NCBI RefSeq assembly: GCF_014042015.1
Contig: NZ_CP059493.1
Span: 310,001 to 374,000 of the forward strand
DNA length: 64,000 nt
Direction of reading: 5' to 3'
From: Actinotalea sp. JY-7876
Lineage (GTDB): Bacteria > Actinomycetota > Actinomycetes > Actinomycetales > Cellulomonadaceae
Shown: in pieces, positions 6,854 to 9,956 of the stretch
Layout: every line of letters begins with the position of its first letter
Position numbering within the stretch: position 1 is the stretch's first letter
Made by a program: the position numbers and the translations under genes
Notes under the pieces: model-generated
Databases searched by the model: none
Told to the model about the DNA's origin: nothing
Seen by the model: only the letters and a program-made list of their open reading frames with translations

Positions 6854-7345
6854 TCAGGCGACGTCGTCGGGGCCCGGCACCGACTGCGGCGCACGTCCCC
6901 CGGGGCCGATGGTCGGCAGGTGGTGCTCGGGCTCGGGGTCGTCGACCAGCTCGAGCAGCTCGCCGATGCGCGTCACCTGGAGCAGGAAGCGGACCGTCTC
7001 CGGGGCGCGGAGCACGCGCACCTTCTGGCTCGACCGCGTGGCGATGCGGGCGAGGAACGCGATGCCCGACGAGTCCATGAACGTCACGTGCTGGGCGTCG
7101 ATGTCGATGGGCAGGCCGGCGGCCTCCGCGTCAGCCGTCGCCTCGGAGAGGTCCGCGGCCATGTCGGCGTCGACCTCGCCCGACAGCACGATGCGGGTCC
7201 GGCCGTCCTGGACGATGACGTGGACCGAGGCCGGCTCGGAGATCGCGTCCGTGGGGAGCTCTCCGGTCGTGTCCGCCTCCGACGCGATACCTGCCCCCTC
7301 GGACTCGGCAGGCTTGTCCGGCGTCCGGCTGTTACCGTCTCGCAC
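6854..7345 (-). CDS. STAS-domain anti-sigma factor antagonist
   Basis: A 163-residue protein with an acidic, flexible N-terminus of about 38 residues, then a STAS domain (about 40-140) of the SpoIIAA/RsbV type. The phosphoacceptor motif is 'FMDSSGIAFL'; Ser92 after Asp91 aligns with the Ser phosphorylated in SpoIIAA. A further 20 C-terminal residues are acidic and Pro-rich. Such proteins bind an anti-sigma kinase when unphosphorylated, releasing a sigma factor. GTG is preceded by GGAGGAG at 6 nt. It is transcribed divergently from the PP2C/HATPase protein, which carries both a phosphatase and a kinase-like domain that could act on it. Confidence 0.88.
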   Translation of the reverse strand: MRDGNSRTPDKPAESEGAGIASEADTTGELPTDAISEPASVHVIVQDGRTRIVLSGEVDADMAADLSEATADAEAAGLPIDIDAQHVTFMDSSGIAFLARIATRSSQKVRVLRAPETVRFLLQVTRIGELLELVDDPEPEHHLPTIGPGGRAPQSVPGPDDVA

Positions 7346-7436: not shown

Positions 7437-9605
7437 ATGGTCAACCGGGCCGCCTCGGGGACCCCGGACGACCTCCTCGCCGACGTGCGGGACCGCGCGC
7501 TGCGCGACACCGACGTGTCCTTCGTCATCACCGACGCGCTCACGCCCGGCTCTCCCATCGTCTGGGTGAACGAGGCGTTCACGCGTACGACCGGGTACGG
7601 GCCGGACGAGGTGCGGGGTCGCAACCCGAACCTGCTCCACGGTCACGGGACGGACCGCGTCGAGGCCGCCCGCATGGCGGAGGCGGCCGCCGCCGGCCGC
7701 GCGGCGACGGTGACGGTCCTCAACTACCGCCGCGACGGCACGCCCTTCTGGAACCAGGTCTCCATCTCGCCCGTGCACGACGCCGCCGGGACGGTGACGC
7801 ACTGGGTCGGTGTGCAGGTCGACGTCACCGAGCAGGTGCGCCGTGCCGCCGCGCAGGAGGCGTCGATCGAGGTCGAGCGCCGCGCGCGCGCCGGGCTCTC
7901 GCTCGTCGCCGAGGTCTCCGACCTGCTCTCCGACCTCGACGAGCCGTCGGTGCTGCGCGAGATCGCGGGTCTGCTGCGGGAGCAGGTCGTGGACTGGGCC
8001 GCCTTCCTGGTGGACGACGCGGGCCTGCGCCCGGCGAGCGGGATCGAGCCCGTGTTCCGAGAGAGCGGGACCACCCGGGGGCGCCGACCGGTGGACCTGG
8101 TGGACGGCACCCCCGGTGACGACCCGGTCCAGCGGCTCCTCGACGGGACCGAGCAGGGCCCCCTCGAGGTGCCTCTGGACGCGGAGGGCGTCGGGCCGGT
8201 CACCGCCCGCCTCGTCGCGCACGTGCGGCTGAGCCTCGAGGGTCCCGAGGGCGCCGGCGGGCCGCGCCGACCCACGAGCGTGGTCGTGCACACCGTGCCC
8301 GGGCGCCGGCGCAGCCAGGGGGTCCTGGTCACGGTGCCCCGCGGCGGTGGCGGCCTCGAGGCCCTGGACGCACACGACCGCACGGTGCTGCACCTGGTGG
8401 TCCGTCGCGTCGGCATGGCCATCGACAACGTGCGGCTCTACGCGCGCGAGCACCGCCTCGCCGAGACCCTCCAGCGCGCGATGCTGCCGGAGCAGGCGGA
8501 GGTCCGGGGCCTGGACGTGTGGACCTACTACGCGCCCAGCGCGGGGCACGCCCAGGTCGGGGGCGACTGGTACGACGTGCTCCAGGTCTCCGAGGACCAG
8601 GTGGCGGTCGTCATCGGCGACGTCGTCGGGCACGACGTGGAGGCGGCGGCGGCGATGGGCCAGCTCCGCTCCGTCGTGCGCGCGTACGCGTTCGACGAGG
8701 GGGCTCCCGGGGCGGTCCTCGACCGCGTCGACCAGCTGGTGGCCGGGATGCGTATCACGCGCTCGGCGAGCCTGGTCCTCGCGATGCTGGCCCGCCACCC
8801 CGACGACGGCGGCTGGAGCCTGCGGTACTCGCGCGCCGGCCACCTGCCCCCGATCCTGGTGCGCCACGGACAGGTGACCCAGCTGGCCGAGGCGGGCGGC
8901 CCGATGGTGGGGTTCGGCGGCGCCGGGCGGCCGACGGGGGAGACCTCGCTCGAGCCCGGTGACGTCGTCGTGTTCTACACGGACGGGCTGATCGAGCGGC
9001 GGGACCGGACGCTGCGGGACGGCCTCGGCGCGCTGGTGGACGCGGCGGCGCTCGTCGGCGCGACCGACGCCGCCGGCGTCGGCGAGGAGCTGCTGGCACG
9101 TCTCGCGGACGGACCCGAGGACGACGTGGCGGTCGTCGTCGTGCGGGTGCCCGGCCCGGTGACGCGTCCCGCAGGCAGCCCGGACGCGCCGGCCGCGGCG
9201 ACGGGCGTGCCGCGTCGGCGGCGGTGGTCGATGCCGAGCGACTCGGCGTCCATCGCCCGGGCGCGCCACGCGGTGACGCGCACGTGCGAGGCGTGGGGGC
9301 TGCCGGACGCCCGCGCCGCCGAGCTCGTCGTGTCCGAGCTCGTCGCCAACGCCGTGCTGCACGGCTGGGGCCACCTCGCGCTGCGGCTCTTCGACACCGG
9401 CGAGGGCCTGCGGATCGAGGTCGAGGACGCGAACCCCGCACCGCCCGTCACGACCGAGGGCCACCACGGCCGGGTCGGCGGCTACGGCATGCAGATCGTC
9501 GAGCGCCTCGCCGACTGGGGCTGGCGGCCCTCCGGCGCGGGCAAGGTCGTGTGGGCCCGCGTGCGGCCCACGCCGTTCGGACCGGGACCCGACGCGGCGC
9601 CGTGA
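7437..9605 (+). CDS. LOV-like PAS / GAF / SpoIIE PP2C phosphatase / HATPase multidomain regulator
   Basis: A 722-residue soluble signalling protein. Residues 20-135 form a PAS domain very like a flavin-binding LOV domain: 'GSPIVWVNEAF', 'GRNPNLLHGHGTD' and 'LNYRRDGTPFWN', ending in 'VGVQVDVTE'. The photoactive Cys of 'GRNC' is Pro64. Residues about 160-335 look like a GAF domain. Residues about 345-565 are a SpoIIE/RsbU-type PP2C phosphatase ('GGDWYD', 'GDVVGHD', 'DGLIERRD', and 'DDVAVVV' with metal-binding Asp residues). Residues about 600-715 form an RsbW-like ATPase with N-box 'ELVANAVLHG' and 'GGYGMQIV'. Two flanking STAS genes are its likely substrates. ATG 7437 has GGGAGG upstream. Confidence 0.93.
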   Translation: MVNRAASGTPDDLLADVRDRALRDTDVSFVITDALTPGSPIVWVNEAFTRTTGYGPDEVRGRNPNLLHGHGTDRVEAARMAEAAAAGRAATVTVLNYRRDGTPFWNQVSISPVHDAAGTVTHWVGVQVDVTEQVRRAAAQEASIEVERRARAGLSLVAEVSDLLSDLDEPSVLREIAGLLREQVVDWAAFLVDDAGLRPASGIEPVFRESGTTRGRRPVDLVDGTPGDDPVQRLLDGTEQGPLEVPLDAEGVGPVTARLVAHVRLSLEGPEGAGGPRRPTSVVVHTVPGRRRSQGVLVTVPRGGGGLEALDAHDRTVLHLVVRRVGMAIDNVRLYAREHRLAETLQRAMLPEQAEVRGLDVWTYYAPSAGHAQVGGDWYDVLQVSEDQVAVVIGDVVGHDVEAAAAMGQLRSVVRAYAFDEGAPGAVLDRVDQLVAGMRITRSASLVLAMLARHPDDGGWSLRYSRAGHLPPILVRHGQVTQLAEAGGPMVGFGGAGRPTGETSLEPGDVVVFYTDGLIERRDRTLRDGLGALVDAAALVGATDAAGVGEELLARLADGPEDDVAVVVVRVPGPVTRPAGSPDAPAAATGVPRRRRWSMPSDSASIARARHAVTRTCEAWGLPDARAAELVVSELVANAVLHGWGHLALRLFDTGEGLRIEVEDANPAPPVTTEGHHGRVGGYGMQIVERLADWGWRPSGAGKVVWARVRPTPFGPGPDAAP

Positions 9606-9617
9606 ACGTCGGCGGGC

Positions 9618-9956
9618 TCAGGCCCGCGTGCTCGCCACGGGCGGGCAGACGTGCTCGCCGTCGATGCGGAACATCGGCAGCGCGCCGCACACCTCGAGCA
9701 CGAACAGCTCGCGCTCGTCGCAGCCGCGCAGGACGGTGGCACCGCCGCGCTTGCGGCCGGCGTCGGCGAGCGAGATGAGGAACGCGGCGCCGGTCGAGTC
9801 CATGAAGGTCACGCCGCACATGTCGATGACGAGCAGCTGGCGCCGCAGCCCGGTGATGCGGGCGGTGATCTCGGGGAACTGGTCCCGCTCCGAGAGGTCG
9901 AGGTCCCCCGCGATGGTCAGCGTCGTCGTCGCCGGTGACATGGCGATCTCGATCAT
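9618..9956 (-). CDS. STAS-domain anti-sigma factor antagonist (second)
   Basis: A 112-residue, single-domain STAS protein of the SpoIIAA/RsbV family with phosphoacceptor motif 'FMDSTGAAFL' (Asp53-Ser54). It lacks the long N-terminal arm of the first STAS protein in this module. The last 20 residues include two Cys. The chosen ATG has GGAGC at 5 nt; an in-frame ATG at 9941 is the alternative. It ends 12 nt from the stop of the PP2C/HATPase gene on the other strand. The three genes together provide antagonists, phosphatase and a candidate kinase domain, but no sigma factor lies in the window. Confidence 0.88.
   Translation of the reverse strand: MIEIAMSPATTTLTIAGDLDLSERDQFPEITARITGLRRQLLVIDMCGVTFMDSTGAAFLISLADAGRKRGGATVLRGCDERELFVLEVCGALPMFRIDGEHVCPPVASTRA

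Follow-up and report, generated by a model that had tools for sequence, protein, structure and literature searches.

A LOV-derived domain with proline at the adduct-cysteine site on a PP2C-HATPase protein of Actinotalea

At one conserved locus of Actinotalea sp. JY-7876, analyzed here within a window of 64,000 nucleotides, it looks as if evolution has switched off a light sensor and kept the rest of the switch. The reading that we favor, at a probability of roughly 60%, is that a cysteine-bearing LOV domain (Cys-LOV) ceased to be photochemically active and persists as a PAS dimer and relay on an Rv1364c-like phosphatase-kinase.

Gene layout and output domains

The protein is encoded by a frame of 722 amino acids that opens with the ATG at 7437, and GGGAGGCGGGG directly upstream is a plausible purine-rich sequence resembling a ribosome binding site. 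Its domains and the two flanking STAS genes are placed in the window as follows.

6854-7345, minus strand: STAS gene 1, anti-anti-sigma-like, divergent from the LOV gene, proposed GTG start at 7345 (Pfam STAS_2, E 2.6e-14)
7437-9605, plus strand: LOV, GAF-like, PP2C, and HATPase protein, 722 aa (open reading frame; Pfam PAS_9, SpoIIE, HATPase_c_2)
7518-7829, plus strand: LOV-fold domain without the adduct cysteine, residues ~28-131 (AlphaFold, Foldseek, phmmer)
7626-7628, plus strand: codon CCG, Pro64 (aligned with Cys paralogs and PDB LOV domains)
7629-7640, plus strand: N65 to H68, in place of Arg451 and Gln454 (alignment)
7722-7724, plus strand: N96, equivalent to N482 (alignment, Actinotalea orthologs)
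7752-7754, plus strand: N106, equivalent to N492 (alignment, Actinotalea orthologs)
7815-7817, plus strand: Q127, equivalent to Q513 (alignment, Actinotalea orthologs)
7827-7931, plus strand: predicted signalling helix, 35 residues, 131-165 (DSSP of the full-length model)
7950-8369, plus strand: GAF-like middle domain, residues ~172-311 (full-length model; weak GAF matches in orthologs)
8370-8480, plus strand: predicted helical linker that leads to the phosphatase, residues 312-348 (full-length model)
8592-9149, plus strand: PP2C/SpoIIE-type phosphatase domain, residues 386-571 (Pfam, E 2.6e-40)
9234-9557, plus strand: RsbW-like HATPase domain, residues 600-707 (Pfam HATPase_c_2, E 5e-10)
9618-9956, minus strand: STAS gene 2, convergent with the LOV gene, proposed ATG start at 9956 (Pfam STAS, E 2.1e-12)

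A first-pass annotation of this DNA had described a LOV-like sensor at 7437-7845 fused to GAF, PP2C, and RsbW-like domains. The SpoIIE and HATPase_c_2 matches confirm the fusion to the last two. The extent needs slight trimming, as the LOV core lies a little inside those limits; the Pfam PAS_9 match covers residues 36-132. The GAF assignment stands in part: GAF fell under the Pfam threshold in the 722-aa protein, with weak matches to GAF models in two or three orthologs, but the full-length model predicts a mixed alpha/beta domain flanked by two long helices, one at 131-165 and the other at 312-348, and a GAF-like identity would fit both its position and its predicted secondary structure.

As in proteins of the Rv1364c/RsbP type, a sensor is joined to a PP2C domain with metal-binding aspartates; alongside the SpoIIE match, D377, D395, H399, D516, D562, and D563, which include the metal ligands, are invariant in 25 orthologs. 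The RsbW-like HATPase domain has its N box and G boxes, with N638, D664, G681, G682, and G684 invariant in the orthologs; with both catalytic parts conserved, the output is intact. The best solved structural match of the output region is the RsbU-RsbW part of M. tuberculosis Rv1364c (3ke6), which spans both PP2C and HATPase. STAS gene 1 is syntenic in all complete loci examined, and STAS gene 2 is syntenic in most. General stress phosphatases are controlled through dimeric N-terminal sensor domains and coiled-coil linkers, and the predicted helix at 312-348 corresponds to the regulatory coiled-coil linker of these proteins (PMC12143880).

LOV fold and flavin pocket

The N-terminal domain has the fold of a LOV domain. 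In the AlphaFold model of residues 1-140 (mean pLDDT, 93.6), strands and helices follow the LOV order, with helices C to F over a five-stranded sheet. The top Foldseek matches are LOV domains, with CrPhot LOV1 and CagFbFP superposing at 0.8-0.9 A over ~105 columns, and the top PDB matches by sequence (phmmer) and fold are Chlamydomonas LOV1, CagFbFP, PAL, and Brucella LOV-HK. LOV-specific NCBIfam models (blue-light histidine kinase, YtvA) scored higher than generic PAS models. Convergence of an ordinary PAS domain on a LOV-like sequence, for which one could cite the frequency of GxNP in generic PAS domains and the unrelated PAS proteins among the Pro-type rows, is hardly credible given the retained LNYRxDGxxFWN and VGxQ motifs and ~53% identity to a Cys-LOV paralog of the same genome; together with the LOV-model scores and the PDB and Foldseek matches, this similarity led us to reject it.

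Codon 64 (7626-7628) is CCG, proline, within the motif 58-EVRGRNPNLLHGHGTD-73, and Pro64 is the first residue of helix E in the model, at the site of the FMN-adduct cysteine (C450 in AvLOV2, C62 in YtvA). A photoactive LOV domain would have its adduct cysteine at the start of helix E, where the cysteine is absent here. When an alternative adduct cysteine was sought across the protein, none was found in residues 1-616, the sole cysteine being C617 in the HATPase domain; therefore, no alternative adduct cysteine exists, and light adduct formation is not possible in the Actinotalea LOV domain. All 17 Actinotalea orthologs in which the domain could be read share Pro64 while neighboring residues vary, and it is thus not a chance feature. 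The first-pass description of a LOV-like domain whose adduct cysteine has become Pro64 accordingly agrees with the fold, the LOV-model scores, the PDB matches, and the codon; the alignment to LOV families that it had proposed as a check puts LOV-specific models above generic PAS models and LOV proteins nearest among PDB sequences, and a different cysteine at the adduct position, which it had named as its refuting case, does not occur in residues 1-616.

Pocket residues were numbered by their AvLOV2 contacts, with position assignment from established LOV structures. N96, N106, and Q127 correspond to the isoalloxazine contacts N482, N492, and Q513 (Q513 being the glutamine at flavin N5/O4), and N65, H68, and A81 occupy the sites of R451 (FMN phosphate), Q454 (ribityl), and R467 (FMN phosphate). 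Both motifs that hold the ring contacts, LNYRRDGTPFWN (with N96 and N106) and VGVQVDVTE (with Q127), lie in the LOV domain. Among 15 Actinotalea species, T418, L453, N482, N492, and G511 are each kept in 15/15; Q513 is kept in 13/15 in this count and in 15/17 in the ortholog alignment. R451 is kept in none of the 15 (S, N, D, or A instead), R467 likewise in none, Q454 in 2 (13 have His), and N449 in 7. Hence the flavin-contacting Asn and Gln positions listed by the first-pass annotation are indeed present, but its statement that most LOV landmarks are kept was too generous, as the three ribityl and phosphate contacts are gone. Judged from these aligned residues, the Actinotalea flavin pocket is split, its ring side held and its ribityl-phosphate side lost, a division that the first reading had missed.

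It is possible, if doubtful, that the Actinotalea domain retains a functional flavin (FMN or riboflavin) and uses it without an adduct for redox or oxygen sensing or for photoreduction to the neutral semiquinone; signalling by flavin redox state was the suggestion of the first-pass annotation. BAT-LOV*, Aer, and NifL are precedents for adduct-free flavin sensing. The invariance of T418, N482, and N492 and the near-constancy of Q513 (13/15) in an otherwise variable pocket speak for such a flavin, but R451 and R467 are lost in all Actinotalea, Q454 in 13/15, and N449 in about half. LOV domains without the cysteine do signal by photoreduction, and BAT-LOV*, which has Pro, takes up flavin and responds to its reduction, although the flavin found on the expressed protein was only modest (PMC4682037). 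In the filter of Yee et al. for Cys-less LOV domains, at least nine other conserved LOV residues are required in the absence of the cysteine; those named, in YtvA numbering, are G59, N61, R63, F64, L65, Q66, N94, N104, and Q123, and nearly all are demanded (PMC4682037). The Actinotalea domain falls short of this filter, with six of the nine (G61, N63, L67, N96, N106, and Q127), which weighs against a working flavin; from the NCRFLQ motif it lacks R, F, and Q. Rescue of the adduct by P64C, as the first-pass annotation had proposed, is unlikely: in the Pro-type BAT-LOV*, the same change (P188C) gave no 390-nm species (PMC4682037).

A search of the literature on the contributions of Gln454 and the arginines to FMN affinity found nothing decisive. 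LOV apo-proteins are stable enough for crystals and bind riboflavin-type analogues (PMC5314338), making an apo or re-tuned pocket realistic. Alternatively, then, the half-retained Actinotalea pocket might have been re-tuned to a phosphate-less flavin-like ligand (riboflavin, lumichrome, or a deazaflavin with an F420-type ring) that controls the anti-sigma switch. We rate this as unlikely; if true, it would make the domain a LOV-fold receptor with a new class of ligand.

Orthologs and the direction of change

With PP2C plus HATPase as the query, 142 of the 150 Cellulomonadaceae genomes each yielded exactly one ortholog, at 56-82% identity outside the genome of origin. The LOV region was read in 116 orthologs from 22 genera. 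Cysteine occupies the adduct column in 0/116 and proline in 60/116, the remainder having mainly Leu, Val, Ala, or Arg, although strongly eroded LOV domains align poorly and single residues in them are approximate. The complete N482/N492/Q513 set (N/N/Q) occurs in 3 of the 22 genera only (Actinotalea, 15/17; g2, 1/1; g6, 2/4) and in no sampled ortholog of the other 19. Since it is incomplete in 19/22 genera and the FMN-tail contacts are lost, the function for which the protein is conserved cannot depend on flavin, and the eroded pockets of other Cellulomonadaceae also count against a working flavin in Actinotalea.

Some individual sequences are of interest in their own right. In L097, from an uncultured Cellulomonas, the motif is GRNPRILQG: R451 and Q454 are retained and the cysteine alone has become Pro, an intermediate state. 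L050 and L051 are also intermediates, with R retained and Ala in place of Gln. L055 lies on a contig titled as a proteobacterial MAG, bears a clear Cellulomonadaceae-type locus, and is probably mislabeled or contaminated. Farther afield, two Brasilonema domains (L082, L085) are LOV-like with Tyr at the adduct site (GKNYSFLHG) and N/N/Q retained. LOV-like PAS domains of Salinivenus, Gemmatimonadota, and Alkalilacustris (L100, L102, L112) have Pro at the adduct position within TPRxLQGP; they retain R, Q, and Gln513, and their N492 has become Val or Leu.

The gene order trmH, fba, STAS gene 1 (minus strand), the LOV gene, STAS gene 2 (minus strand), a DUF gene, and purA forms a block conserved across the order. 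At this locus, with the same architecture and neighbors, complete Cys-LOV domains occur outside the Cellulomonadaceae, in families f18 (L286-L288), f16 (L289), and f8 (L290-L292) and in genus g62 of family f14 (f14/g62, L293); these orthologs have the motif GxNCRFLQ and the full N/N/Q. No complete Cys-LOV was found at the syntenic locus in the sampled orthologs of f2, f3, f12, f13, and f14/g38. On a tree built from Fba, PurA, PP2C, and HATPase, the cysteine state changes at least three times, one change falling within f14 with strong support. The complete Cys-LOV motif is also found in paralogs and in Proteobacteria, including Methylobacterium, which makes loss much simpler than repeated gain.

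The LOV-domain tree was dropped as a judge between loss and primitive absence, its p-AU values leaving the direction undecided, which is the main weak point of the case for loss. Taken alone, it allows a single clade of all Cys rows (AU test, p-AU 0.497); with the Pro domains forced beside the Cys orthologs, the tree is 20.5 log units worse and not the best, but it is not rejected (p-AU 0.136). In a first domain tree, the long branch of L111 gave a misleading root. The direction of change therefore rests on synteny and orthology, from which we infer that the cysteine was lost secondarily at the Cellulomonadaceae locus. The claim of the first-pass annotation that the sensor had evolved for light is likewise supported by the syntenic canonical Cys-LOV orthologs in four other families.

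A primitive Cys-less state has been proposed for ancestral LOV redox sensors, and the Cellulomonadaceae domain could by analogy be a primitive Cys-less LOV or flavin-PAS domain in which the cysteine was never present. Pro is found in LOV-like non-Cys PAS domains (L100, L112, L114), and the single Cys clade is compatible with this account. We nevertheless consider it highly unlikely: complete Cys-LOV domains share the locus and architecture in four families, domain replacement in sister families would be required, and the occurrence of Cys-LOV in Methylobacterium and other phyla indicates that the cysteine predates this locus.

Without the cysteine, the LOV domain has evolved faster. The median ratio of LOV to output (PP2C plus HATPase) divergence over pairs is 0.97 for Cys orthologs and 1.35 for Actinotalea; it rises to 2.49 among the remaining no-Cys Cellulomonadaceae and to 4.09 in f14/g38. 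These ratios are descriptive because pairs share branches. Purifying selection still acts on the Actinotalea LOV domain (dN/dS, 0.12-0.46), a range similar to or somewhat above that of PP2C and below that of the middle domain, which is in keeping with a working flavin. The divergence ratio and purifying selection together place Actinotalea at an intermediate stage, with photochemistry gone and the fold and ring side kept. A separate pattern is seen in L277 and L284 (G315 and G276; f14/g38), which keep the aligned adduct cysteine (GHPCHDLL and GRDCSGLL) and have lost all three ring contacts (D/H or G/H/H), a decay in reverse order.

A proposed relay role and comparison with known systems

In the model that we propose, the conserved stress-switch locus would have lost its cysteine one or more times in the lineage leading to Cellulomonadaceae and relatives, and there would have been loss in other families as well. 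This would have ended the blue-light adduct photocycle and left the PAS/LOV fold together with the helices at its two termini. The LOV-derived domain may now act as a dimerization and signal-relay module. By relay through the long helical linkers, it would control how active the PP2C phosphatase and the RsbW-like kinase domain fused to it are on STAS anti-anti-sigma proteins, probably those of the two flanking genes. The continued conservation of N/N/Q in Actinotalea argues against a pure relay, as a purely structural role does not require it; with the ring half of the pocket still held by selection, some residual ligand input may be possible in this genus.

Natural Cys-less LOV-like domains, Pro types included, were reported in 2015 (Yee et al., PMC4682037), and those described so far are mostly scattered examples. 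As far as our searches show, what is new here is an order-wide syntenic series with repeated loss of the cysteine at one stress-switch locus and with matched Cys and no-Cys orthologs. One syntenic gene thereby offers Cys-LOV in intact form, a Pro form that retains R and Q (L097), a Pro form with the ring contacts only (Actinotalea), and fully eroded pockets. Such matched native proteins at a single locus make two questions testable: whether a LOV domain can still signal once the adduct cysteine is gone, and in which order flavin binding, photochemistry, and output coupling disappear.

The Actinotalea domain resembles BAT-LOV* in its LOV fold, the change of the adduct cysteine to Pro, the lack of any other cysteine in the domain, and the conserved Gln and Asn ring contacts, but BAT is a haloarchaeal transcription activator, whereas the Actinotalea protein has a PP2C/HATPase output and six of the nine filter residues (PMC4682037). 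With canonical actinobacterial LOV-PP2C proteins, on which a literature search found nothing specific, it shares an N-terminal LOV domain, helical linkers, and a PP2C output. One such protein is the paralog L001 of the same genome (G000:C1:3527254-3527568), a canonical Cys-LOV-PP2C protein and the source of the ~53% LOV identity noted above. Unlike the 722-aa protein, it retains NCRFLQ, R467, and a full pocket, lies at a different locus, and matches only to near residue 610, ahead of the HATPase domain; owing to this paralog, blue-light input to PP2C may persist without the 722-aa gene. The syntenic Cys-LOV-GAF-PP2C-HATPase orthologs (L286-L293) share locus and architecture at 50-53% overall identity and differ in their intact photochemical motif. 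Bacillus RsbP is likewise a PAS-PP2C protein, a general stress phosphatase that is under PAS control and acts on a STAS protein, but it is without a HATPase domain and has the RsbQ hydrolase as its partner; no RsbQ gene was seen among the neighbors read at the Actinotalea locus. Rv1364c (3ke6) has the same succession of PAS, PP2C, and RsbW-like domains and differs in ending with a fused STAS domain of its own, where Actinotalea has two separate flanking STAS genes and a GAF-like insertion.
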